Shown here: one piece after another, positions 3,334-26,807 of the stretch | How the letters are laid out: every line of letters starts with the position of its first letter | Position numbering within the stretch: the stretch's first letter is position 1 | From: a virus | Virus record (IMG/VR): IMGVR_UViG_3300030202_002236 | Location: 22,935 to 50,033 of that record | DNA length: 27,099 bases | Reading direction: 5' to 3' (one strand) | Notes under the pieces: model-generated | Seen by the model: only the letters and a program-made list of their open reading frames with translations | Database searches by the model: none | Told to the model about the DNA's origin: nothing | Made by a program: the position numbers and the translations under genes

Positions 3334-3678
3334 TTATTTACTACTTTTAACCACCTCGGATCCTAAAGAGTATAATTCAGCTCTGTTTATAGTGTCATTA
3401 GACATACGTACAGACGCGTAGTACCCTTTCAAGCTAGACGTATTTACTTGATTGTTTTTAACAAACAGCAAAAACGATTCTTCAGGTATAGTTATATTTT
3501 CAGCAACTTTAATATAACTAGGACCTATCTCCGTTATTTCCATACCACCAGTAGGTAGCATAGAGTAACCGGCTAGTTGATTGTTATTGCTTGACATTTG
3601 AGATACAGGCGAGTAGTATGCTATATCACCGACTTGCAAAGATATATTTGATATTGCTGATGTTAAATTTATTATCAT
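3334..3678 (-). CDS. Small conserved phage structural-type protein (114 aa)
   Basis: A small, beta-rich, neutral protein. Recognisable blocks are SLQVGDIAYY near the N-terminus, a central ITEIGPSYIKVAENITIP stretch and a C-terminal part with SSLKGYYASVRM, NRAELYSLGSEV and SSK. I recall the 'VN.SSLKGYYA...N....AEL....SE...SSK' pattern from many marine phage genomes next to tail genes, without an assigned function. Its ATG overlaps the stop of the 395-residue gene upstream (ATGA), so the two are probably translationally coupled. A tail or virion component is the likely role, inferred from position and company. Confidence 0.75.
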   Translation of the reverse strand: MIINLTSAISNISLQVGDIAYYSPVSQMSSNNNQLAGYSMLPTGGMEITEIGPSYIKVAENITIPEESFLLFVKNNQVNTSSLKGYYASVRMSNDTINRAELYSLGSEVVKSSK

Positions 3679-4862
3679 GACGCTGCTCCTGGTGTTATAA
3701 AGTTGTCTAAATTAAGATTAATAGTTCTGTCTGCTACAGGTTTTCCAAAAGAGTTTGCTATAAACTTTGTTAATACTCTTATTTCGCTATTAGATCCTTT
3801 AAAAGTTAATAACGTACCATCGGGTATTGTTTGCGCTGCTTCTACTACAATACTACCTGCAGAAGAACTAGCGCTTACTGAAGTAACTCTATTTGACGCT
3901 GAATTATCAACACCATTACCAAAGTACGTTGCTAAATTACCTCCAGCGATACCATATGTGCCGTCTAGATTTATTGTTGTGCTACTGCTTGTAGCTGTTC
4001 TAGTCGTTTTTGTAACCTTAGACTCTTTTGTTGTCGCGGCAGACAACGATACTTTTTTCAAAAATATACCAGTTGATTTAGATATAACTTTAGGACCTCT
4101 CGCTTCAAAAGTTAATGTTATACCATCAGCAAACGTTTGCGCTGTTTGCAGTGTTACTGCTTTTCTTTTAGAGTCTATAGCTGTAACAAAACCGTTAGCC
4201 GCTAAACTACCACTACTAACACCAACAATGATCATACCAACAGCTACATCAGTAAGATCATCTAACACTACTTCAGTACCACCAGTTATAGCGCCATCAA
4301 CTGTTTGAGTTTTTCTGTATATTAAATCTTCAGGCAAGGGTTGTCTTATAAGTCTTAAACCAAAGCCGCCAGCGTCAGTAGATGCATTTGTGACTAAGTT
4401 ATTAACACTAAATACAGAAGACACCTTTTTAATAGGAGATCCCGTTATAGCTGTTGAAGACGGGAACGTAGCGTAGTTGTCAGTATTTGCGGTAATATAC
4501 TGATATGTTATTGTAGCGTCTAGTATTTGAGATATTTCAGTATTGAAAACACCACCTATTCTTGATACAGTTGTATCAGTGCTAGCATCAGCGGTAACAA
4601 TAACGTTGTACGTTTTATTTGAACTAATTGATGGAAACTGTATTTTAGTAGTAAAATTTCTACCAGAAATAACACCTTTAAGATTATTTTGAGGAACGTG
4701 ACCGTCTGTAAAAACTTTTGTAACAAAGTTGTAAAACTGGCCTGAACTATTAACAACCACAAGTACAAACCTAGATCCGCTGTCTCCAGTGATTGACAAA
4801 GATCTGTTTTCACCAGATTTAGCTAGAGATGTTGTAGATATATTTAATCCTGTTATTTCCAT
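3675..4862 (-). CDS. Beta-rich tail/virion protein with an internal duplication (395 aa)
   Basis: The protein is rich in Ser, Thr, Val and Gly and looks almost entirely beta. Residues 1-95 resemble an Ig-like or beta-sandwich domain (SLSITGDSGSRFVLVVVNSS, then a strand pattern ending in TYNVIVTADAS). Residues about 183-257 and 286-357 appear to be two copies of one module, each ending in AQT..DG..LTF (241-252 and 343-354). No enzymatic motif is visible. It lies one base downstream of the giant tail gene and overlaps the next gene by ATGA, so it is probably a tail accessory or fibre-attachment protein. The function is inferred only from composition and position. Confidence 0.75.
   Translation of the reverse strand: MEITGLNISTTSLAKSGENRSLSITGDSGSRFVLVVVNSSGQFYNFVTKVFTDGHVPQNNLKGVISGRNFTTKIQFPSISSNKTYNVIVTADASTDTTVSRIGGVFNTEISQILDATITYQYITANTDNYATFPSSTAITGSPIKKVSSVFSVNNLVTNASTDAGGFGLRLIRQPLPEDLIYRKTQTVDGAITGGTEVVLDDLTDVAVGMIIVGVSSGSLAANGFVTAIDSKRKAVTLQTAQTFADGITLTFEARGPKVISKSTGIFLKKVSLSAATTKESKVTKTTRTATSSSTTINLDGTYGIAGGNLATYFGNGVDNSASNRVTSVSASSSAGSIVVEAAQTIPDGTLLTFKGSNSEIRVLTKFIANSFGKPVADRTINLNLDNFITPGAAS
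3792..4316 (-). repeat. Tandem protein-module duplication within the 395-aa protein
   Basis: Two segments of the 395-residue protein, encoded at about 4092-4316 and 3792-4007, share a matching layout: a glycine/asparagine-rich entry, a valine-rich central strand and the ending AQTFADGITLTF versus AQTIPDGTLLTF. They are joined by a K/S/T-rich linker. This is a protein-level repeat; I did not see strong nucleotide identity, which suggests an old duplication. Confidence 0.5.
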
Positions 4863-4863
4863 G

Positions 4864-7800
4864 TTATTCGAATTGTGTTCCGGCTATTATTCCTACACCT
4901 TGCACGTTTAATGATGAAGTATCAACGTTTGAAGATCCAAATATTTGATTACCTTTTATATAGTTAAACCACTTGTTTTCTTTGTTGATAAATTCGTTTA
5001 TTGAACCAGACTCAATATCTGTATATATATTAGATACTCTCCAGCCGTGATTTGGATGAAGACTTAGCGATTGAGGGTAGCTTTGTATCTCAGTTTCTGG
5101 AGCATCGTTGTATAAAGATATGCCACTTACGTTTGCTTGCGAACCTTCGTAAGCTAGCGTTTTAAAGTTTTTTACTGTAGAAGGCTCTGCGTTTAAAATA
5201 CAAGTTAACGTAGATGGATAGCTTTGACCGTAGAAAGTGTTTCTATTGTTATTAATGTAGTGCTGATACAACCTACCTCTATCCATAGTAAAATATTGAT
5301 TAGATAAACTTAATCCATTTTCAGGCACAAAAGATTTAAAACTAACCCAGCCTTGAACGTCTTCGTTGTAAGTTACAGTTTGTATTTCAGCACCTAAGTT
5401 TTGTGGTAATATTGTTCTTACTAAAAATATATTATCAACGGCTCCAGTGGTTGTATCTATTGTACCGTGTGCTTTTATTACTAAGCTGTTGATAGGTATA
5501 TTGTAACTTTGATCAAGTTCAATTTCTTCAATAATTAACGAAGCATTAAAAAACCCGTTGTTAGCTGAGTTTACTATTGAAGAAAAACCATAAGTTATAC
5601 CCTGAATTACCGTGTAATACGACACTTGTAAGGCTCCAGATTCTAACTCAACGTCAAAAGACAGGTCAAATGTAGTGTTAGGTTGCAAAGCACCAATGTC
5701 TTGAGATATAAACACAGCGCCATCTGGTTGAGATTGATTTATAAGCGAAGGAGCCTCGGTAAATTGTATTTGCCCTTCGTTCCAGGCAATAAAGTTTTCA
5801 ACTGTTTGGTCAAAACCGTTTATAGTCCAAGCGTTAACACCTTCACCTTCAGCTCCAGTAGTAGAAAAATAGTTTGTAACATCAACTAGTGATATATTGT
5901 CTACAGAACAAATTGATTCACTAGTAGAGCCTCTAAACTCAATCTTAGCTTGACCAGAGTATTCTTCGACCATAGCAATATCAATTAACTCGCTATTAAG
6001 AAAAACTTGACCCACATTTCCTTCGACTATGTTAAACAACACTTCGTAATCACCAACTTGTGATGCAGCATAGTCTAGCTTAAACCCGTTACTACCTCCT
6101 CTAGCAACTACAACTTTAGCGCCGTCTACAAATTGATCAGCGTCTGTATTTGGACTTACAGTGAAGTTAAGTTTAAAGCCATCGTTAGTAGGATAAAACG
6201 AGCTTATAAATTGTTTTATACCTTTTGTAGACTTGTATATATTAAGTCTGTTATTTTTATAGTAAGCACGTGGGTAAGAATACTCTTCGTCGCTTCCAGA
6301 AACAAAAGCGCGCTCAATAATTATAGAGTTTTCATCTATTAAATCCCAATGTGTAAACGTACCTCCTGCAAAATCTTCGTCCGTTACGTCAAATATTTTT
6401 AAACGCTTACAGTATGCTGGCGCGTTACCGCTGTTTCTTAACTGAAGAATGTCAGTGCCTATAATACCCTCTGCTATATCTTCACCCGTATAAAATAATC
6501 CACGTAAAACAAATTGCGAGCCTCCAGCGTAATCATCTTTAAATATAGGCTTAAGTTTTAAGTTTCGAGTGGCAGAACCCTCAGCTGTAGGTATTGATTG
6601 TCCAATACCGCCAAGAAAGGCCTCTATAGAATTTGTCGAAGAGTTGTTAGGCGCTACACCATAAATTTGAATATTTAAATTAGACAAAAGACTTTCGTCA
6701 TCAATATCTTGCCCTTGCTCGTCAACCATGTACATGTCTACGAGATACCAGTGATTAGCCTTAACATTTGTAGATAAAGACTTGTTGTGATGATTTACGC
6801 TGTTTTGTAGCTTTATAATAGAGCTATTAAATGTCACAGGGTATTCACCGTCGTCAGGAAGATCTGCTAATTCGTTTCCAAAAGGATCTACTGGATTTTG
6901 GCCTTCTTGCCACTCTACAATAGTTCCGTCTGCTAATTCCTCAGAGTTTGTTGCAGTAGGTAGATTTTCAATCCCATATAGCAGCTCGTTACCGTAGTTT
7001 AAATTCCACTCCCAAGCGTTAACACCCTCTGGCGCGGTGTGTGATACTTTAGTCCACGCGGGAATATCATAACCAGGTACGTCATCAATAGGTTGATCTG
7101 GTATTATAGTGTCAGAATCAGTGTATTGCTGCAGCGCATATATTTTTCTAAAACTAAAACCAGTGATAACTACTTCTGGAGCCCTATCAAGGTGGCTGTC
7201 ATAGGTACCGTTGCCATTTTCAAAGTGCGCACCTATTCTAAACTTTAAATTTTGTACTACTACATCTCCGTCATTTAAACTCGAGTTTTTTATTTTAAAG
7301 TACCTTACAGCAGTTTTATCTTTATTATGTATATAACCTTCCGCATCAGGATATCCTACGTCTTCTGGATCGTAGTACCAAAGGTTACCATTCCAAACAC
7401 CATCTCCATTGCCATAAGCGTTTACGTGCGCGATTGGTAAGCTTGCCGAACCCTGTAACACTTGTTTAGATTGGCTTTGATAGGTTAAATCAGGGGTATT
7501 TCCCGCGCCTACCCCACCTACTAGCAAGCTATCATCGAGAATGTTTTCAAGAGGGTCATTACCGTCCATTAAAGCAAGTGTAACTTGAGCTCTACGACTA
7601 GCTGAATCTGAATAGTGATTAACTCTGTAATGAACTCGAACTTCTATTTCCTCGTTGTTGAATATAGTGTTATTTTTAGCGTTAGGAAAATTATCTAATA
7701 CATTTTCAGTTATTTTACTTCTGCTTGCTTCTAAGTGATTGCTAGCAAAACCTCCGTCGCCACCCGCGGCTGGTATCATTAAGTAACCCATAGGTGTATA

Positions 7801-10800
7801 ACCCTCAAGCCACTCGTTGTTAGTTCCGCGTGCTAATCCTCTAAAAACAATACCTTTATTTAGAGTATCTACGGCGTAATTGTTGTCACCAAAACTAGGT
7901 AGGTTAATCGAAAGATCGTCTGGCACGCTGTAAGTTCCGTCGCTCATAAACACTTGAACTGGCGTATTATAAGGCCAGTATGAGCTGTCAAAGTTGTTTT
8001 GCGGTATTGGTTCGTTAATCTCATCGTAATTACTACCAGTAGTCTGTATAGACGCGGAGCTCCCACCCGACTGAGATCCAGTAGGATTATTGTGATTCGA
8101 GTATCTATCAATATAAAACTTAGCGCCTTGCGAGCTTCCAATTCCATCATCAGAATCAAAGCAGTTCGCTGCGTTAGGATCGTTGATAGTAGCGGTTAAA
8201 TCGTCGGCATCAAAATACATCGAAAATCCAGTACCACTTCCAAAAATAGGATTATATTCACCTTCAATTGTTTCTCCTTCTATAACGCCTGCTGATTGAT
8301 ATTCGTTAAATGAAATTGCTGGAAAAGACTGTATTGTAGTAGAGCTATCAAGCGCTTCGTTTTGCGATATTAATACACTAGAATCTAGCTCGGTAACCTC
8401 AGCTACCTCACCAGGAAGATAGTTTTGATTTATTACGTTTTGATTAACAAGCTCGTTTATCGTGTTTTCACCTTGAAAAGGAAAGCCTGAGTTTAAAGCG
8501 CCGTCAGTAACTTTATTAGTATTATTGGTAAACTCTTGAACTACTTCACCTTCAGAAATAGTATCGTTGATAATAGGTGTAGTAAATACTTTTGGCCTTA
8601 TTGTTAAATTATAATGCTTACTATATGCATCAAAGCTGCCTAGAAGCTGAGCGTTGTTGACCAAGTTATCTCTAAACCAGTCTCTCATGCCAGCGTCGGA
8701 TATAGGCGTTAACCCGTCTTTAGATAATCTTAATACAGCACCTCTTTGTCTGTCAGCAAAGTAAGCTCTAAATGAGTCTGCTGCAAATGACTCAGGATGG
8801 GTAGATATTCCGTAATCACCAGCGAAAGGAATAGATTGACCTAAAACTCTTTCGGTAGCTACAAGTTGAGGATTACCATCGGCATTGAATAATGCGTCTT
8901 TGTTTGCTAGTATTTTTAAAACCTTGTCTTCACATAGAGTAACTAGATCAGCATTTCTAGTAAATAACTTTTGTATACTACCATACGTTGGGTTTACATC
9001 TTTTGTTATTTTCTCTCCAGCAATAAACTGGTTTAAATTATTTACTTTAGAATTAGAGTTGTAAATCCCTGAATATATTAAACCGTTGGTCCTGTGCTCT
9101 TCGAGTATAGGTTCTTCTACAGTGGCAGACGCTCTAGCGCCGCTAGATATTCTCATTTCATTAAAACCGTCTCTAACTCTATCTGACTCAATACCATCGC
9201 CAAAACAAAAACAGTTAAACCAATTTAAACCAACATCTAAGGTGGTATCAACTTCTATTTGTACATTAAAGAACTGCTTTAAATCTAAACCTTCGTTGTT
9301 GACTGGATCATTATCAAATATTTTGGCTTGAGTATAGCTACCGTCGGCTCTAGTGAACTTAAGTATCGCGCCAGTGTAGTCAGCAGCGTCGCCTATAACG
9401 TCTGTAGCAGGCAAACCAGGCTCGAGCTTAAGAGTGTTATTTCCAACCCAATTTACAAGTTTTAACTCTTGAGTATCGCCGTTAGTATCAAGAGGAAGCT
9501 CAACAACTAAGCCTGAAGGTAAATCAGACAAGCTTACAGAAGAACCTATAGGTGCAAATATTTCTCTATTTTCACCCTCTATTCTCGTAGGTATGTTACC
9601 ACTCGCTTCAAAGTATATATTTAAATCTGCTAATTGACCAGGCTCTGTTTCCCATATAGTAGGCGCACTAAATAAATCACCGCTAAGAGCTGGCGGTATA
9701 TCTGATAAAAACTCTATTAAATCAGTGCTACTTAAAGTAGCATCGTAATCACCTCTCGGATCATAATGTGTTTCTGGATTTTTGTCAAGCTCTATTACGT
9801 AGCAAACTCTTCTGTTATTTGCTTGACCAAAGTCTACAATTTTTCCACAAAGAGCTTCAGCTAAAGACGCGTCTGTTGGTTCGCCACCTGCGTTAGCCGC
9901 GTTAGCCCACGCGCTAGCCGCCTCTTCAACACTGTTGTCTGCGAAAATATATCCTGTTCCATCATAAAGAACCCTTGTTCTCCAAGAGGTGTGGTTGTAT
10001 AAGTGTTTTTCTTGAACAGACTTAATAGTGTAAACAGTTTCGTCTACATCTCTTTTAAACCTAAACTTACTACCAGCGGTAGTTAACTTACTTACAAAAG
10101 CTTGTATTTCGTTATCTATACCGTTTTCTGAATACGCAGGATTCCATTGCTCAACGTGTTTTTTTGCATACTCTGAATCATAGCCTTCACCAATAGAGTT
10201 TACGCCATTCCAGCCAGGGGCTTCCTCTAAAGCGTTACCTTCAGCATCGTAATTACCCTCAAACTCTACGTATTTTAATTGGCTTTGACCGAAATTACTA
10301 GTTGTTAAAGAACTTACGTTTGTTGTTGAAGCAGTAGGTTGAACTAAGGCGCTTAAAGTAAATACACCGCCTCCCCATATGCCTTGCATTTTGCTAGCTA
10401 TACTATCAGGACCTTTTAAATACACGCCTTCAAGAGTTGTATCTTCAAACCCGTCGTGCAAATCGTCTCCAGGTGCTAGAAAAGAAAGGTGCATAAAAAA
10501 CTTACCGTCTTCTTCGGTATATGTTGCATCATATTCTATAGAAGATCTAGAACCGTATATAGTGTCGTTAACCCACCTTCTAGCGCCTGAAGTGTGAACA
10601 TCTGTAGTTTCAACTATTCCTTCTACAGAATTTATTAGGTTTTCTTTACCAGAGTCTCCAGCTGGCCACTGTGGTGTAGGGGATAGCGAAACTCTAGTAC
10701 TATATTCCCAACCGCTATATACTATTGGCTCATTATCTTCATCTACACCTTCTTCAAAGGAATCTCCAACCCACTCTATAGGTCTATATTCTGTTCTAGC

Positions 10801-13269
10801 TCCACACCATCCTTCACCTGATTCTTTAGCGTATGAAAACTGAGAAGGGTTTGATGATATAAAATAAGCATCGTCTATAAAAAACTGGACACCACTACTA
10901 ACTAAAGTACTCCAATCGCCTTCTTCGTCAGATATAGTTCCTTCTGGAGTTGCTGAAATAGTATTAGGAATAGTTTCTGAATCTGAGTTAATAATACTAG
11001 ATGTTTCATCAAACGTCCCAGGAGTATGAGTGTTTCTTAGATATGCTGATTGCGCGTCAGCAGATAAATAAAACTGATCAGACTGATCTAAAGTGGTTAA
11101 ATAGTTATTATGCTGTATCTTAACAAAAAACTTACCGCTAAAATCTTCTTCACTTCTAAGCTCTCTTTTCTCTATTTTAAATATTAAGTTTAACGCTACG
11201 TTGGTTGCTTCTGGAGTAATAACCCCATTAACAGACGCTAATCTAGCGTCTTTGTTAGATATTTGTTTTTCAAGGCGTAAAGCAAAATTTTCATAACTAC
11301 CAGTTCTAACGTCAGATACTTTGTATCTATCAGAGTGCTGGTCGCCAAGCTGCCATGATACATACATGTTTTGAGCATATGAACCTTGAAGCTCTACGTC
11401 GTCACCACCATCAGTTTTTAATAAAAACGCGCCAAATTCATCAAGCCATACGTCTCTCCTGATAGCAATTAAAGTTGTTTCTCTGTCTATTCTTAAATTC
11501 TCAGTATCGCCAGAGTCAGTGTAAAATAACCCTGAATCTCCATTTAATCCACCGCTATTATTGTCAACCTGACCTAAACTGTAAAACACGTACTTAACAG
11601 CACTAGGAGCGTTGTTACTGATGTCTAATATTTTATACTTGTTTTCTTGAGCTACTTGAGTATTACTGCCATCGTATATTTTCTTAGCAATAATATAGTC
11701 ATCTTCTGTCAACTTGTTTCTATCAGAAGAAGGAAAAGATATATAAAAGTGATCTTGAGTATTTTCAAACTCTGAGTGAGTATGCGGAAAATACGACTTA
11801 TCCATAACTAAGTTATAATACTCAGCTGAGTCTGACTTAACATAAAACTTATAGTATTCAGCCCACTCCGGTAGCGCAGAAGTTAATCTAGCATTGAGCA
11901 TAAACGAGTTGCTTGCAGCTAAACCGTATACACCAGTAGACCATCTTACTTTTAAACCAGCGTCATTAGAGCTAATAACTGGAGTTTCTCTACCGTATTT
12001 ATCACCTACAACATAGCCCAGCTGATATTCTCTAAGTGACTTGATGTGTTTTAAACCGCCTTTAGTAAAGTCTTGATTAGGTCGCCTCTGGTATCCACCA
12101 TCGATACCTGGTATAGACTCTACAAAATCATAGCCCTGTTTGTAGTTGGCGTATACTAATCTATTGCCTACGATCTCTTGAGCAAGAGCTGCTTTAGGCA
12201 CGTTATCAAACGCTCTTAAAAATTGATTCTCTGGAAGCGCCGCCTGTATTGTTTCGTTTGATATTACGTATTTACCCTTATGAGATGTTTCAACACCTTC
12301 AGTAAATTGAGCAGATCCATTTTCACTCCACTCTGAATCTGTATATTTAATATTTGCTACAGAATAAATAACAGGTGAGTTTTCTTGCTTATACAGAATA
12401 TCTACTTGAACTACGTCTTCTGGAATATCTGAAGGCACAAAATCGTATAACTCAATAGACTTTATTAAGTTAACCATAGATTTATTATATGGCTCGTCAG
12501 GAATATAAGAGTTAGATGCGTTTACTAAATTATCGTACTGTGGGTTGAAAATTACCTCAGTAAATGGACCAAACGCTGAGTACTCACCGTCTTTGTACTT
12601 GTATCTAAAACAAAATCTAGGTAAAACTTTTTCAAATATAGCTTCGCCAGCATCTCCTTTAGCGTTTATAGTTTTTACCGTTGGAGCCACGCTAGGCTTT
12701 CTTTTAATTACAGTAACGTGTTTTTCTTCAAGGTGAACGCCTTGTACGCCATCGATATATAAATATGCGTGGTCTTGGTTTTGAAAAGTAAGCGCAGGGT
12801 TAGCTTGGCTAGACTTAGAAATATTTATTTTTTTTGGTTCATTGATTCCATCTGTCCAAAACAAAAAATCATCAACTATATTAATACCGGTTATTTGGCT
12901 TCCTGTAAAGTTTAAAAATGATATTAGACCTTGATACTCGCTGGTGCCAGCTAAGTCAACTGCAATAAACTGAGTAGATCCAGTGTTTTGATCGTACTCT
13001 AGTATAGCGTCTCTGTTTTCGCCTTTAATAAACCAATATAATTTATTTGTTCTTTCATTAGCAATGCTACCAACGCAAACGCAGTTAGAAGAAACCAAAT
13101 ATTCAACTGGTAAATTACCTGGTATGTTTTGAGCTGTACCAGCAGATCCATCTTCAGATGAGGTGATATCTATATTTAAAGCATCTCTATATTGGCCATT
13201 AGGCACAAACCTTTCGTCAAGGTCTTTATTCATTTTACCTTGACTAAAAGTGTTTTTAATTTCCGGCAT
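4864..13269 (-). CDS. Giant tail stabilisation/muzzle-type protein (2801 aa)
   Basis: The largest gene in the window. The N-terminus (KMNKDLDERFVPNGQYRDAL, then GTAQNIPGN) and the following blocks (NKLYWF, DDFLFWTDG, RYKYKDGEYSAFGPFTE, GNRLVYANY, YVVGDKYGRETPV, up to about residue 430) match the tail stabilisation or 'muzzle' proteins of crAss-like and marine phages; the YWF/FWTDG strands suggest a beta-propeller. A second conserved block lies at about residues 1375-1560 (YSGIYNSNSKVN, GSIQKLF, DGLTPISDAGMRDWF). A third is at the C-terminus, about 2625-2801 (WVSFKSF, NKENKWFNYIKG). Between blocks two and three lie several beta-sandwich, carbohydrate-binding-like modules, two ending in VDNISLVD and VDNIFLVR. 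By analogy it forms the distal tail and may contact host glycans. There is no frameshift or stop in 8.4 kb. Family fairly sure; module functions inferred. Confidence 0.8.
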   Translation of the reverse strand: MPEIKNTFSQGKMNKDLDERFVPNGQYRDALNIDITSSEDGSAGTAQNIPGNLPVEYLVSSNCVCVGSIANERTNKLYWFIKGENRDAILEYDQNTGSTQFIAVDLAGTSEYQGLISFLNFTGSQITGINIVDDFLFWTDGINEPKKINISKSSQANPALTFQNQDHAYLYIDGVQGVHLEEKHVTVIKRKPSVAPTVKTINAKGDAGEAIFEKVLPRFCFRYKYKDGEYSAFGPFTEVIFNPQYDNLVNASNSYIPDEPYNKSMVNLIKSIELYDFVPSDIPEDVVQVDILYKQENSPVIYSVANIKYTDSEWSENGSAQFTEGVETSHKGKYVISNETIQAALPENQFLRAFDNVPKAALAQEIVGNRLVYANYKQGYDFVESIPGIDGGYQRRPNQDFTKGGLKHIKSLREYQLGYVVGDKYGRETPVISSNDAGLKVRWSTGVYGLAASNSFMLNARLTSALPEWAEYYKFYVKSDSAEYYNLVMDKSYFPHTHSEFENTQDHFYISFPSSDRNKLTEDDYIIAKKIYDGSNTQVAQENKYKILDISNNAPSAVKYVFYSLGQVDNNSGGLNGDSGLFYTDSGDTENLRIDRETTLIAIRRDVWLDEFGAFLLKTDGGDDVELQGSYAQNMYVSWQLGDQHSDRYKVSDVRTGSYENFALRLEKQISNKDARLASVNGVITPEATNVALNLIFKIEKRELRSEEDFSGKFFVKIQHNNYLTTLDQSDQFYLSADAQSAYLRNTHTPGTFDETSSIINSDSETIPNTISATPEGTISDEEGDWSTLVSSGVQFFIDDAYFISSNPSQFSYAKESGEGWCGARTEYRPIEWVGDSFEEGVDEDNEPIVYSGWEYSTRVSLSPTPQWPAGDSGKENLINSVEGIVETTDVHTSGARRWVNDTIYGSRSSIEYDATYTEEDGKFFMHLSFLAPGDDLHDGFEDTTLEGVYLKGPDSIASKMQGIWGGGVFTLSALVQPTASTTNVSSLTTSNFGQSQLKYVEFEGNYDAEGNALEEAPGWNGVNSIGEGYDSEYAKKHVEQWNPAYSENGIDNEIQAFVSKLTTAGSKFRFKRDVDETVYTIKSVQEKHLYNHTSWRTRVLYDGTGYIFADNSVEEAASAWANAANAGGEPTDASLAEALCGKIVDFGQANNRRVCYVIELDKNPETHYDPRGDYDATLSSTDLIEFLSDIPPALSGDLFSAPTIWETEPGQLADLNIYFEASGNIPTRIEGENREIFAPIGSSVSLSDLPSGLVVELPLDTNGDTQELKLVNWVGNNTLKLEPGLPATDVIGDAADYTGAILKFTRADGSYTQAKIFDNDPVNNEGLDLKQFFNVQIEVDTTLDVGLNWFNCFCFGDGIESDRVRDGFNEMRISSGARASATVEEPILEEHRTNGLIYSGIYNSNSKVNNLNQFIAGEKITKDVNPTYGSIQKLFTRNADLVTLCEDKVLKILANKDALFNADGNPQLVATERVLGQSIPFAGDYGISTHPESFAADSFRAYFADRQRGAVLRLSKDGLTPISDAGMRDWFRDNLVNNAQLLGSFDAYSKHYNLTIRPKVFTTPIINDTISEGEVVQEFTNNTNKVTDGALNSGFPFQGENTINELVNQNVINQNYLPGEVAEVTELDSSVLISQNEALDSSTTIQSFPAISFNEYQSAGVIEGETIEGEYNPIFGSGTGFSMYFDADDLTATINDPNAANCFDSDDGIGSSQGAKFYIDRYSNHNNPTGSQSGGSSASIQTTGSNYDEINEPIPQNNFDSSYWPYNTPVQVFMSDGTYSVPDDLSINLPSFGDNNYAVDTLNKGIVFRGLARGTNNEWLEGYTPMGYLMIPAAGGDGGFASNHLEASRSKITENVLDNFPNAKNNTIFNNEEIEVRVHYRVNHYSDSASRRAQVTLALMDGNDPLENILDDSLLVGGVGAGNTPDLTYQSQSKQVLQGSASLPIAHVNAYGNGDGVWNGNLWYYDPEDVGYPDAEGYIHNKDKTAVRYFKIKNSSLNDGDVVVQNLKFRIGAHFENGNGTYDSHLDRAPEVVITGFSFRKIYALQQYTDSDTIIPDQPIDDVPGYDIPAWTKVSHTAPEGVNAWEWNLNYGNELLYGIENLPTATNSEELADGTIVEWQEGQNPVDPFGNELADLPDDGEYPVTFNSSIIKLQNSVNHHNKSLSTNVKANHWYLVDMYMVDEQGQDIDDESLLSNLNIQIYGVAPNNSSTNSIEAFLGGIGQSIPTAEGSATRNLKLKPIFKDDYAGGSQFVLRGLFYTGEDIAEGIIGTDILQLRNSGNAPAYCKRLKIFDVTDEDFAGGTFTHWDLIDENSIIIERAFVSGSDEEYSYPRAYYKNNRLNIYKSTKGIKQFISSFYPTNDGFKLNFTVSPNTDADQFVDGAKVVVARGGSNGFKLDYAASQVGDYEVLFNIVEGNVGQVFLNSELIDIAMVEEYSGQAKIEFRGSTSESICSVDNISLVDVTNYFSTTGAEGEGVNAWTINGFDQTVENFIAWNEGQIQFTEAPSLINQSQPDGAVFISQDIGALQPNTTFDLSFDVELESGALQVSYYTVIQGITYGFSSIVNSANNGFFNASLIIEEIELDQSYNIPINSLVIKAHGTIDTTTGAVDNIFLVRTILPQNLGAEIQTVTYNEDVQGWVSFKSFVPENGLSLSNQYFTMDRGRLYQHYINNNRNTFYGQSYPSTLTCILNAEPSTVKNFKTLAYEGSQANVSGISLYNDAPETEIQSYPQSLSLHPNHGWRVSNIYTDIESGSINEFINKENKWFNYIKGNQIFGSSNVDTSSLNVQGVGIIAGTQFE

Positions 13270-13272
13270 GAA

Positions 13273-14694
13273 TTAGTGTTTTATGTGTTTAGACTGACCT
13301 CTAAGTATTTGAGTAAGCTCTTCTAGCTTAATGTTAGATAATCTTAACTTAGCTTTTCTAACAGCCGCGAACTTTTCTTTTTTATGGAAAGCTAATCTGC
13401 CTCCACCAATATTTGATCTAGTCGATATTAAATCGTACAAGATGTGCTTGTACATAGCGTCTTCAGCTAGTTTAGGTACTTGCATTTCTTCGTCAGTACC
13501 TAAGCCATCGCTTATATAATCTAAGATTACAGTTTTTCCACTAATGTTAGAAGAAAAATGTACTTTACCTAATCTTTCGTCAATATAGAAACTACCGTTA
13601 GTTTGAGCTAACTGCGTGTCTAAACCATATCTATTAACTAGGTCAACATATCTATTAGGGTATTTATAGTCGTCTACGTCTTCGGTAGAGTCAAAAGATT
13701 TGTAACTATCCCAAGTTGAAGAACTAACACCGTCAGCGGCGGCGTGTATTAAAAAGTTACCTGCTTGAGCGTTGGTAACTGATACGTTATCTATTGTGTT
13801 AATAATACTAGCAGCGCCAGAAGTTGCAAACTCAGCGTTAGACGTTATTAAGACAAATATACTTTGGTAGTTACTCACATCGATATTAGATAGGGTTTGT
13901 GTGCTCGTAACACCATCCCACTCTAAAAACGCATTTTGCAAGTATATGTCTGAAGTAGAATTAGTTGATGCAGATTGAGTCACTCCAATGCCACCAAAAT
14001 CAGGGCCATTAGTAGTAACAGAAATACCTATATTATTGTAGTCTCCTGGGGTAGCGCTTAATCCTAGTCTGACGATACCTACGCCTTCTGCAACGCCATC
14101 GGCTGATATGTTCACTGTGTTAACGTTTGACACGTCTATCTCTTGCCATACGCCATAAGAAAAACCATGAAAATTATCTCCAAGAATTTCGGGCTTATGT
14201 AAAAAAGTTAAAACCCCTTCTTTTGTTTTTACATTTGGCGAGTACTGATAACCATTTAAATTATCAGAAAAATCCCCATTAATTAAAAGGTTAGAAGACG
14301 TAGGGAAACTATACTCACCATTTTCCTCTTGTTTAATTTGAAAAGGATTTGAAGTATATTTAGTAGGATATAAAACTCTTTTTATACCGTTTTCTTCGAC
14401 CCTAGATATCTTAGTATAGTTTACGTAATCATGAGGAAGCACCATTGTTAAGCTAGGTGGCACTTCAATCTCTTGAGACTTGTATGATTTAAAAACGTCA
14501 AATGATAGCTCAGCTAAAGCTCTATGAGCATGAAAAGATATGTCAGCTCGTTTTGCTTTATTTATTAATTTATCTTCGCCAACGTACATAATCTCAAACT
14601 GAGTTATAATATCATCTAGCGATATGAACTGATAATTACCAAAGTTATTGCCTTGATAGTATTGTTTGTGTGTAGTTCCGTCTAGTAAACCCAT
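13273..14694 (-). CDS. Neck/ring (head-tail adaptor-type) protein with an inserted CBM-like module (473 aa)
   Basis: Residues 1-130 and about 312-473 look like one conserved protein. The first part has DDIITQFEIMYVGEDK, AHRALAELSFDV and PPSLTMVLPHDYVNY. The last part ends with a block at about 412-473 (MYKHILYDL, AKLRLSNIKLEELTQILRG, SKHIKH) that I recall as highly conserved in marine and crAss-like phages. Between them, residues about 134-310 read as a beta-sandwich carbohydrate-binding-like module: it opens with NLLINGDFSDNLNGY and closes with TIDNVSVTNA, the typical ends of CBM4/9-like domains. The gene sits between another ring-type gene and the giant tail gene, so a neck or upper-tail ring is the likely site. 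No catalytic motif is visible. Ring role by position and memory; insertion by reading. Confidence 0.75.
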   Translation of the reverse strand: MGLLDGTTHKQYYQGNNFGNYQFISLDDIITQFEIMYVGEDKLINKAKRADISFHAHRALAELSFDVFKSYKSQEIEVPPSLTMVLPHDYVNYTKISRVEENGIKRVLYPTKYTSNPFQIKQEENGEYSFPTSSNLLINGDFSDNLNGYQYSPNVKTKEGVLTFLHKPEILGDNFHGFSYGVWQEIDVSNVNTVNISADGVAEGVGIVRLGLSATPGDYNNIGISVTTNGPDFGGIGVTQSASTNSTSDIYLQNAFLEWDGVTSTQTLSNIDVSNYQSIFVLITSNAEFATSGAASIINTIDNVSVTNAQAGNFLIHAAADGVSSSTWDSYKSFDSTEDVDDYKYPNRYVDLVNRYGLDTQLAQTNGSFYIDERLGKVHFSSNISGKTVILDYISDGLGTDEEMQVPKLAEDAMYKHILYDLISTRSNIGGGRLAFHKKEKFAAVRKAKLRLSNIKLEELTQILRGQSKHIKH

Positions 14695-21572: not shown

Positions 21573-23792
21573 TTATTTTATTAATTTAGAGTTTACACCC
21601 TCGTTGTTGTATTTTGCTATATTCAAGTTTAAAGGTTGTCTTTGACGCTCTGCGTGTGGAGCATATAAGTGTCTGTTGCAAGCCATAATAGCTAAACCAG
21701 TACTTATAGAAGCGTCATGCTTAGTTCTTTTGTTTATATCAAACTTGGCCCAGTCTTGTAATGTATCATTAAAATACATAGTACCGTAATTGCCTTCGCC
21801 TATATGACCAACGTGATCGTTAATATACATTTCAATAGCTGCAGCATGAGCTTGTTTAATATCTTCACTTGAGTTTGGTATACCACCAACTTCTTTTTCA
21901 GCAGTCGATAGTTTGTTCCATGATTTATCAGGTCTGTTCATACTATAACCTCTATAGCCTCTACGGCGTAGATAATACAATAATCTAGGTTTGTTGTTCT
22001 CTGCAAGCAATGGCATGCCGTAAAACACTAGTGCCATTAGAACGTCTTCAAAAAACATTTCTGCGGTTTGTGGTCTTGCTATATACTCTAAGAAGAACGA
22101 GCTCGGTGGCGCGTCTTCCATAGAAAATTTTGTAAGTCCGTGTAAAGCTCCTTTAGAACCGCGACCATCAACTGTGCCACTGATGTCATAACTATCGCAA
22201 CCAAAGGCGCCAACATGATCGTTACCGGGATATTTAATTCCATTTTTAATTATCTGCCTATTCTGTAAGTGAACTGGCGGCACCCAGCTTACTTTAAACC
22301 TACCTGTTGGATCTGGGTTAAAAACAACTTTACTATCTTTAACACCGCTGATCCAGCCAAAACTACCAGTAGTTACATGTGCACCGTGTCTACTACCTTC
22401 GTTAAAATCTATCTGCTCGTATATCTTAATTAAGTTAAATATACTGTTTTTAGTCTCATCTCTAAACGCGTGTTCTTCAGTACGTGGAAACTGTCTGTAA
22501 AACTCGTTGAGCGCATCTTGATCGTCACGCAAGCCATCAGCTTCATTTTCCCAGTTTTCTATAACACCTACGTCTATCAGTTCACCGTCTGGTCCATGTC
22601 GTTCATCATCACGTCCACAATTAAAGACTGGAAGTCCGTGCTCGTCAATAAATCCTTCATAGTTCCATTCCATTGGGATAAAGAGAGAATAAAGCCCAGA
22701 CTTTGTTTGTCCATTACGATTTCGTCGTGTGACGTCAGAATCATTGTATAGTTTTTTAAAGTTATCTCCACCTTTGTCAAGCGCATTACTGGTACTACCC
22801 ATTAAGCACTTACCAACGATTCTACTACCTAACCTTAAGCAGGTTTTAGTAACTCGCCAGTTGTTTAATATGTTATCAGGTCTCTCCCACTTACCACTCT
22901 CATCATGTACTAGCAAGCTCAGCTTTTCACCGTCATAGCTGTTATCACCAGTGTTCTTCCAGTCGATTGTAGTGTCAAGACCTACTATCTCTTCAAGCTG
23001 TTCGTTGCTCTGTATTTTCTTACGAGTAAACTTACTAGCCGGAACTCTATACGCAAGCTCAGACTTTGGACGATCCATACCGTCTTGTATGGGCTTGAAG
23101 AAAAAAGGATAATTTATAGATATAGGTACAACCTTATCAGTAAACATCTTCTTTGCATCGGCTCCAGACTTAGAGAGTATCCCATATCTACTATCACTCG
23201 ATATAGTGGCTAAGTTAACTGTTTCAGCTGACGACATAAACGAGAAACCTGAACGACGGTTTTTAAGGTAGCACATCCCATAGCATCTCTTATCAGCTTT
23301 ACAGGCTTCCCAGAATATAAAGAATAGTCTGTTCGCCTCTCTAAAATCTGGAGCTCCAACGTCAATCTTGCTCCATTGCAGGTACATATAATGTGCACCT
23401 GTTATGTACGTTGGTACGCTTTTATTGATAAACCAGAATCCTTCGTCTCTACGCTTGAACTCTTCGTCAATATAGTCGTACCATATTTCTTTCTGTTCGT
23501 CTGGATAGTCTCTCCAGTCGAATATACTTTTTATACGGCTGAGCTCTTTTGGGTATTCAGCTCTTACCCATTTCTCTTCTTTATGTCGAAGCACATTCCC
23601 GGTGGGCACTCTAGGCAACGCAATTTGCAACCCTTGGATTTCAAGGATTTCGCCGATCTGCCCAGTCTTTGATATAACAATGATATCATGGTCTTTATCA
23701 TAACCGTATTTCCATTTTTTACCACGATTAAGCCTCGTGATAGTTGTTTTCTTAACTGGCTCTACAACCTTAACTAAACTTTGCTCGTACAT
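21573..23792 (-). CDS. terL: Terminase large subunit (739 aa)
   Basis: The DNA-packaging motor: an N-terminal ATPase drives translocation and a C-terminal RNase H-like nuclease cuts the genome. The Walker A region is atypical, KNRRSGFS at residues 177-184, with no GK[ST]; a displaced basic residue is also found in terminases such as lambda gpA. Walker B with the catalytic glutamate is LSLLVHDE at 291-298 (D297, E298), and the coupling motif is MGSTSN at 331-336. Candidate nuclease acids are D533 (GCDSYD), E598 (MPLLAEN) and D693 (KHDASISTGL). Length and order fit the crAss-like and marine group. The start overlaps the upstream stop as TAATG, so translation is probably coupled to the small terminase candidate. 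Confidence 0.92.
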   Translation of the reverse strand: MYEQSLVKVVEPVKKTTITRLNRGKKWKYGYDKDHDIIVISKTGQIGEILEIQGLQIALPRVPTGNVLRHKEEKWVRAEYPKELSRIKSIFDWRDYPDEQKEIWYDYIDEEFKRRDEGFWFINKSVPTYITGAHYMYLQWSKIDVGAPDFREANRLFFIFWEACKADKRCYGMCYLKNRRSGFSFMSSAETVNLATISSDSRYGILSKSGADAKKMFTDKVVPISINYPFFFKPIQDGMDRPKSELAYRVPASKFTRKKIQSNEQLEEIVGLDTTIDWKNTGDNSYDGEKLSLLVHDESGKWERPDNILNNWRVTKTCLRLGSRIVGKCLMGSTSNALDKGGDNFKKLYNDSDVTRRNRNGQTKSGLYSLFIPMEWNYEGFIDEHGLPVFNCGRDDERHGPDGELIDVGVIENWENEADGLRDDQDALNEFYRQFPRTEEHAFRDETKNSIFNLIKIYEQIDFNEGSRHGAHVTTGSFGWISGVKDSKVVFNPDPTGRFKVSWVPPVHLQNRQIIKNGIKYPGNDHVGAFGCDSYDISGTVDGRGSKGALHGLTKFSMEDAPPSSFFLEYIARPQTAEMFFEDVLMALVFYGMPLLAENNKPRLLYYLRRRGYRGYSMNRPDKSWNKLSTAEKEVGGIPNSSEDIKQAHAAAIEMYINDHVGHIGEGNYGTMYFNDTLQDWAKFDINKRTKHDASISTGLAIMACNRHLYAPHAERQRQPLNLNIAKYNNEGVNSKLIK

Positions 23793-25835: not shown

Positions 25836-26228
25836 TTATTTTTTTACTTTTTCTAGTGATCTACCACCAAAGTATGCACCGATCACTGTTATTAATACTA
25901 ATTGAAGAAGATCCACGTATGAATCCTTCACGTTAAAATTGATTGCACCAGCATCAATAAATATCAATAGCATCGTGCATACTATTAAGAACACAAGAGT
26001 TAATGGCCTTACGTTCTTTGAAAGCCACGAGTCAGACTTAAGATCCGCCTCCCATCGAGATGTAATATTCTTTTCCATCTCAACTTCATAATTGGCTACT
26101 AATTCTTTTATTTTTCTTTGAGCTTCAAGCTTCTCTTCTTTCGATGTAGTGAGGTTGTCTAATACTCCACCTACGCCTTCAACAAGATCAGCTGCGCCTC
26201 CAGAAAATATATTAGTTAAGAAATTCAT
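25836..26228 (-). CDS. Holin of the GTA-type three-TM family (130 aa)
   Basis: Holins form lesions in the inner membrane and set the time of lysis. After a weakly hydrophobic, glycine-rich N-terminus (about 1-26) comes a charged helix (about 28-66). Two clear membrane segments follow, at about 73-93 (RPLTLVFLIVCTMLLIFIDA) and 105-121 (VDLLQLVLITVIGAYFGG), and the tail is basic. The motif SWLSKNVRPLTL before the first segment and IGAYFGGRSLEK at the end match the gene-transfer-agent holin family (Pfam GTA_holin_3TM) as I know it. It overlaps the upstream 70-residue membrane protein gene by ATGA, so the two are translationally coupled. Confidence 0.75.
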   Translation of the reverse strand: MNFLTNIFSGGAADLVEGVGGVLDNLTTSKEEKLEAQRKIKELVANYEVEMEKNITSRWEADLKSDSWLSKNVRPLTLVFLIVCTMLLIFIDAGAINFNVKDSYVDLLQLVLITVIGAYFGGRSLEKVKK

Positions 26229-26437
26229 TTCGCAAACTTTTCTACACCACTAATCCCAAATGATCCTAGAACCACCCAAACAAAGGAATTGTACACAAAT
26301 TCGTTTATTACTAGGTCTTTACCTACGGCTCCAGATACAGTATCCACAATCATTACCACCACCATAAGAGCAAAGGCTACAAACCCAACTATTGCTTTTT
26401 CGTTCCATTCGTTATTGTCTTTAAATATTTCAAACAT
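26225..26437 (-). CDS. Small two-TM membrane protein, putative second holin or antiholin (70 aa)
   Basis: A short protein with a charged N-terminus (FEIFKDNNEWNEK), a first membrane segment at about 15-34 (AIVGFVAFALMVVVMIVDTV), a short polar loop and a second segment at about 49-64. It is coupled to the holin gene by ATGA and overlaps the zincin-like gene upstream by 8 bp. Two neighbouring small membrane proteins often form a holin/antiholin pair, but no family is recognised. It could equally be an unrelated membrane protein. Confidence 0.65.
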   Translation of the reverse strand: MFEIFKDNNEWNEKAIVGFVAFALMVVVMIVDTVSGAVGKDLVINEFVYNSFVWVVLGSFGISGVEKFAK

Positions 26438-26807
26438 TTTTTTCCGCTTTCATAGCGCGCTTCTCCCAAGGAAAAACTTTATCTCCTTCTGGGTACCACT
26501 TACCATTGTATTTTATTTTACCGTCTTTTCTAGGATACGTCTTACCGTCACTTCTAACCCAGTCATCTCCATAAGCAATTCTTCCACTAGCCATTTCTTT
26601 ACAGTGGACTTTTTCATGAGCTATAGCTTGTTTATAGAGTTTGCTATCTCTAGGCACGTTTTTATCTACAACAATTTCCTTTTCACTAACAGCTTCAGCA
26701 ACTACGCCTTTTTCAAGGTCTTTATGCTTTATGTTGAGCTTTTTGTTAAGCTGCCCATTTCTAGCGATACCAGGAAGAGGTTTATATCTGTTAAGTTTAA
26801 ATGCCAT
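26430..26807 (-). CDS. Zincin-like (HExxH) putative metallopeptidase (125 aa)
   Basis: The protein contains AIAHEKVHCKEM: H64, E65 and H68 form the HExxH zinc motif. A C-terminal FPWEKRAMKAE supplies E115 as a plausible third ligand, in a 'PWE.(R/E)A' setting I recall from similar phage proteins. A conserved-looking middle (AYGDDWVRSDGKTYPR) separates them. At 125 residues it would be a minimal gluzincin-type domain. It has no signal peptide or membrane segment. The leader TAAAGGAAATA before the ATG is one of the few Shine-Dalgarno-like ones in the window. It may process a phage or host protein or act in lysis together with the two membrane proteins that follow; the substrate is unknown. Confidence 0.7.
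   Translation of the reverse strand: MAFKLNRYKPLPGIARNGQLNKKLNIKHKDLEKGVVAEAVSEKEIVVDKNVPRDSKLYKQAIAHEKVHCKEMASGRIAYGDDWVRSDGKTYPRKDGKIKYNGKWYPEGDKVFPWEKRAMKAEKNV

Follow-up and report, generated by a model that had tools for sequence, protein, structure and literature searches.

An exchange loop in a tail-barrel ring protein of a short-tailed marine phage, occupied here by a predicted carbohydrate-binding-like domain

The ring 2 protein of a short-tailed marine phage with kinship to Flavobacteriia phages carries an inserted segment that is predicted to fold as a domain separate from a predicted ring-type core, and among relatives this segment has been replaced repeatedly. Comparison of homologous sequences identifies the loop concerned as an exchange site that is refilled again and again by unrelated modules. 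The first-pass annotation of this DNA had drawn attention to the insertion; it contained neither the exchange hot spot nor the modules of the same classes that relatives carry in the adjacent ring and in the muzzle.

The window, by which we mean the whole stretch of 27,099 nucleotides analysed, is a portion (positions 22,935–50,033) of a 50,033-base virus record, IMGVR_UViG_3300030202_002236. On the minus strand its genes run in the order terminase large subunit, portal, a 392-aa protein, a 491-aa virion structural protein at the position of the major capsid protein, a 282-aa protein, ring 1, ring 2 and a 2801-aa protein. The order is identical in Cellulophaga phage Calle_1, the Flavobacterium elemo phages, Maribacter phage Panino and the environmental genome ctfjg026. 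Phages related through the terminase infect Flavobacterium, Cellulophaga, Tenacibaculum and Maribacter, and one of them, Calle_1, is filed in Pervagoviridae. As regards a possible place in Crassvirales, a muzzle C-terminal domain is matched in the window and two ring-like genes can be recognised. The features needed below are as follows, with identities referring to module-less homologues from three uncultured relatives (L098, L104 and L106).

13273..14694, minus strand: ring 2, tail-barrel ring/adaptor protein with inserted module, an ATG-start open reading frame of 473 aa
14320..14694, minus strand: N-terminal ring core, residues 1–125, 63–64% identical to L098, L104 and L106
13726..14304, minus strand: inserted segment, about residues 131–323, missing from module-less homologues
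13765..14292, minus strand: predicted jelly-roll domain with CBM-like fold, residues 135–310 (AlphaFold2 and Foldseek)
13630..13725, minus strand: shared linker SSTWxxYK..., residues 324–355, following the module (comparison with homologues)
13273..13629, minus strand: C-terminal ring core, residues 356–473 plus stop codon, 66–70% identical to L098, L104 and L106
14699..15484, minus strand: ring 1, 261 aa, adjoining ring 2; PHROG 14543; without insert in the window phage
4864..13269, minus strand: muzzle (tail-tip) protein, 2801 aa; Pfam crAss_MUZ_C (PF25729) at residues 2674–2774, E 3.6e-8

A protein of 473 residues with conserved ends, interrupted by an insertion of about 530 bp at 13765–14295, had been proposed from the window sequence. 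The reading frame is confirmed, the ends are conserved to the extent listed above and, in an alignment with homologues, they join cleanly without the insert. The proposed coordinates match residues 134–310, but the extra segment is slightly wider. Its borders are sharp: a G-x-Y-x-F stretch (residues 126–130) lies on one side and the SSTWxxYK linker, which is also found in most module-less homologues and behind other module types, begins at residue 324 on the other. The extra domain thus delimited comprises about 190 residues in the loop that joins two core strands, and the middle region as a whole measures 230 residues in the window protein versus 46–48 in L098, L104 and L106. These three are much closer to the window protein than are the orthologues of the cultured phages Calle_1, elemoE and Panino and of the complete genome ctfjg026, which have 283–307 aa and likewise lack the centre. 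A length census of 79 distinct homologues, keyed on the C-terminal end only, gave a bimodal distribution, with middle regions of 45–65 residues in 28, of 147–502 residues in 51 and of intermediate length in none. The centre is therefore not common to all homologues, and on this sequence evidence its presence or absence is not a matter of chance. A second insertion site within the ring 2 protein is seen in L019–L023 (for example L019:4707–5870), where about 90 extra residues lie near the N-terminus, from YYSGQ to NYGDY, and the central module is absent.

Several lines of evidence place ring 2 in the tail barrel. The protein matches the virion structural proteins of PHROG 13977 (E 1.2e-41), shares its gene position with proteins annotated as structural in Calle_1, elemoE and Panino and is encoded between the capsid and muzzle genes, as judged from gene order, the annotation of those three phages and the crAss_MUZ_C match downstream. 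An AlphaFold2 model of the core, built on module-less L098 with 54 sequences (mean pLDDT 63.8, pTM 0.55), has its best structural matches in φcrAss001 (7qoi_FS, E 3.5e-5; 7qog_B, E 5.2e-5), followed by portal-tail or connector chains of VP1, cyanophage A4, Carin 1, SU10, GP4, KHP30 and N4 and by the T4 neck; the top 26 matches are all portal, adaptor, neck or tail chains of phages, or else assemblies of virions. The model thus assigns the ring 2 core to the phage tail ring/adaptor type, with helices and a beta-sandwich as in the R proteins of φcrAss001. For ring 1 there is a weak SU10_adaptor match below the cut-off.

φcrAss001 has tail-barrel ring proteins R1–R5 and a muzzle, and the gene for R1 (gp43) adjoins that for the muzzle, gp44 (PMC10172136). 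The window phage resembles it in the predicted fold of the ring core, in having a ring gene directly before the muzzle gene and in the family of the muzzle C-terminal domain, whereas two ring genes are recognised here as against four ring proteins there (PMC10172136). Because ring 2 precedes the muzzle gene in the same manner, by analogy it may be an R1-like ring.

In AlphaFold2 models of the window protein and of L098 the order of core helices and strands is unchanged with or without the insert, so the insert is confined to one loop, between strands 105–109 and 369–372. This bears on the view that the centre belongs to the ring core itself and varies in sequence only. Its fixed position is all that speaks for such a view; the joined ends of the module-less homologues and the constant core order speak against it, and on the sequences and predicted structures we regard it as refuted, with a negligible residual probability.

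The insert itself is modelled with higher confidence than the rest of the protein. When the window protein was modelled with AlphaFold2 (57 sequences; pLDDT averaged over blocks of 10 residues), block means across residues 141–310 came to 89–96, except for values of 83 and 74 at 221–240, and the protein ends score lower. Residues from about 140 to 310 are accordingly predicted, with confidence, to form a separate beta-sandwich of the jelly-roll or galactose-binding-like type. When this domain was compared with the PDB by Foldseek, the best small-domain match was TmCBM61 (2xom; E 2.7e-6, TM 0.66 by target length), and the further best small-domain matches include a porphyran-binding CBM (8xmz), CBM16 (2zex) and CBM4 (1gui), with CBM27 also among them. 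The predicted jelly-roll is shared with CBM61, 8xmz, CBM16 and CBM4 at TMt values of about 0.55–0.66 and sequence identities of 9–16%, with no family-level sequence match. A jelly-roll domain set within a ring or neck protein, as originally suggested, is thus supported by the predictions, with CBM folds as its nearest neighbours and a ring-type core around it.

The family assignment is a different matter. The first-pass annotation had recognised ends of CBM4/9 type, and simple patterns do find an NxDF-type motif at the N-terminus of 55 of 58 window-type modules and an IDNV-type motif at the C-terminus of 50 of 58. The label CBM4/9 did not hold, however: Pfam CBM models, CBM_4_9 included, matched 0 of 49 window-type modules, and the sole profile alignment with CBM4/9-type modules covers about 22 columns at the N-terminal motif. 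Profile comparison of window-type modules with CBM4/9-type modules, double-repeat modules and two muzzle segments revealed no significant homology. Pfam gave no CBM match for the full ring 2 protein or for the insert alone, and searches with the module sequence returned no match in the PDB and no family in a collection of annotated phages. The module is CBM-like in its predicted fold, and the call rests on the fold and the two end motifs because no Pfam CBM family is matched by sequence.

The jelly-roll fold is widespread and serves non-glycan binders as well. Cry toxin domains, the sugar-recognition domains of Fbs1 and Eph receptor domains are also among the fold matches, and since Cry and Eph receptor domains occur there, sugar binding is not implied by the fold alone. 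The modules could instead be host-facing adhesion domains for a non-glycan ligand, such as an outer-membrane or gliding-surface protein. The lack of sugar specificity of the fold would allow this, as would the double beta-repeat modules described below, for which no ligand is known. The small-domain matches are nevertheless dominated by CBM61, the porphyran CBM, CBM16, CBM4 and CBM27, and CBM4/9-like modules take turns with the others in this slot, which makes a non-glycan ligand improbable in our estimation.

The variety of modules in the ring 2 slot is seen in 136 distinct homologues: 32 have an empty slot, 59 a window-type module, 28 a double beta-repeat module (VGM..SG type), 15 a CBM4/9-like module and 2 other contents. 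A CBM4/9-like example, in L072, reaches E 8e-4 against Pfam CBM_4_9, below the cut-off; the occurrence of such modules at this very site was counted in favour of the glycan-binding reading. On a tree of the two protein ends (136 rows), at least 25 changes of state are needed, and supported branches alone force at least three changes involving the window-type, at least three involving the double-repeat and at least two involving the CBM4/9-like module. Within the window-type class, median module identity is 31–36% while the ends are 60–90% identical, and the module offers no run of residues constant enough to probe bacterial genomes with. Module identity is thus largely decoupled from end identity, as would fit exchange or rapid diversification. 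The insertion had been thought a possible recent acquisition. This we can discount for the window phage, because the smallest supported clades around it (12 and 14 rows) uniformly have the window-type module. Modules can also be nested: in two 745-aa homologues (L015:3456–5690 and L016:3456–5690), VGM-type repeats lie within a window-type module.

Modules of these classes also occur in the adjacent ring. Of 229 phages in which both ring genes could be seen, 16 have an enlarged ring 1 (302–470 aa); two of the scans were seeded with enlarged ring 1 sequences, so that these and the following proportions are not population frequencies. Two sites in ring 1 are used. After the EEKI helix, CBM4/9-type matches are found in L153, L166, L190 and L278, with similar inserts in L137, L229 and L268; between two C-terminal strands, double-repeat modules are found in L104, L154, L176, L177, L188, L189, L215, L228 and L297. 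The ring 2 slot is empty in all 16 phages with an enlarged ring 1, and none of the 111 phages whose ring 2 slot is occupied has an enlarged ring 1; 102 of the 229 sampled phages are module-free at both rings. The exclusivity gives a Fisher p of 2e-5, a value from which shared ancestry is not removed and which falls short of proof, a phylogeny-aware test being underpowered. It is conceivable, though we think it rather doubtful, that there are three alternative display sites on two rings, all supplied from one shared pool of modules, with at most one module per phage and recombination of modules between sites. The reading of one module per barrel derives from the absence of a ring 1 module in all 111 phages with ring 2 filled, and from ring 1 modules, which would have arisen several times in the lineage where ring 2 is empty. 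If true, it would amount to a rule of one display module per barrel, perhaps arising from the space around the barrel or from function.

The muzzle is a further location, with CBM4/9-type modules in L102, L129 and L046. At 2801 aa, the muzzle of the window phage contains large extra regions, since those of Panino, Calle_1, elemoE and ctfjg026 have about 946–1551 aa. Two of its segments, each ending in VDNI, were suspected of being CBM-like domains; their profile support was weak and we did not retain them. Three other proteins of the window were noted in passing. A 395-aa protein downstream of the muzzle (3675–4862) is weakly similar to double beta-repeat modules, its best domain reaching E 0.005 in a search of limited size. 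A 130-aa protein (25836–26228) matches the GTA holin family below threshold (PF11351, E 2e-4) and is a candidate holin, and a 125-aa protein (26430–26807), to which no family was assigned, has an HEKVH motif resembling HExxH and is possibly a zinc peptidase.

What might a module at this position do? Ring 2 would be one of two adjacent tail-barrel rings whose loop between core strands takes accessory domains. By analogy with the φcrAss001 rings, which have 12 copies, about 12 copies of the module would surround the upper tail, presumably facing outward and away from the tip. They may bind host capsule or exopolysaccharide, at the surface or in released form, through weak, multivalent and reversible contacts, and this adhesion would come before engagement of the tail tip in adsorption. 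The group as a whole can do without the module, because 102 of the sampled relatives have none in either ring. Glycan binding by the module is what we infer from these observations, and the account as a whole, from the exchange loop of a barrel ring and its CBM-like jelly-roll to the dozen or so copies and the adhesion to host polysaccharide, seems to us somewhat more probable than its competitors together.

The main rival to glycan adhesion is a structural one, in which the modules, as beta domains exposed on the ring, serve to attach tail fibres or other proteins of the virion. In φcrAss001, fibre docking hubs sit on R1 and R2 (PMC10172136), a Pfam scan of the window proteins found no tail-hub homologue, one of which may still be present, and different modules could suit different fibre partners. 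Close relatives nonetheless have no module at either ring, glycan-binding modules are what the fold matches best among small domains, and the succession of unrelated folds at one site would demand repeated changes of partner. We therefore consider docking unlikely, if less so than a non-glycan ligand, and prefer adhesion to glycans.

There are precedents for glycan-binding-type modules on conserved neck and tail proteins. In the 936 lactococcal siphophages, CBMs are found in the neck passage structure (NPS), the major tail protein and the evolved Dit, and two of them bound in the authors' fusion-protein assays (PMC6669499). As here, the modules vary between close phages and occur in part of the group only, and the NPS has a near-identical N-terminus followed by different module classes, comparable to the conserved ends and variable module of ring 2 (PMC6669499). 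The two systems differ in that the 936 phages have Gram-positive hosts and NPS modules that are C-terminal on fibres, while the window module is an internal insertion in a tail-barrel ring of a short-tailed phage akin to Bacteroidota phages; the module sequences are unrelated (PMC6669499). The BACON repeats of crAss-like phages, in the part of the source available, are likewise carbohydrate-binding-type domains in Bacteroidota phages, but belong to another domain family and form a tandem repeat, where the ring protein described here has one exchangeable module (PMC6949934). For φcrAss001, the available part of the structural description places insertion domains in the capsid protein and the muzzle and mentions none in the ring proteins (PMC10172136). 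Within the portion of the literature covered, we found no published description of an exchangeable module in a tail ring/adaptor protein.

Accessory adhesion modules, which siphophages are known to have in proteins of the neck, tail and baseplate, are thus extended to the tail-barrel ring, in kin of Flavobacteriia phages that recur in viral metagenomes. The homologues supply many candidate CBM-like domains without sequence match to known families. Matched proteins that differ at one site (empty, CBM-like or repeat-type) make any effect of upper-tail modules, away from the tip, on adsorption to polysaccharide-coated bacteria open to experiment. For the phages themselves, the ring 2 slot appears to be an exchangeable display position that may help adhesion to cell-surface sugars.
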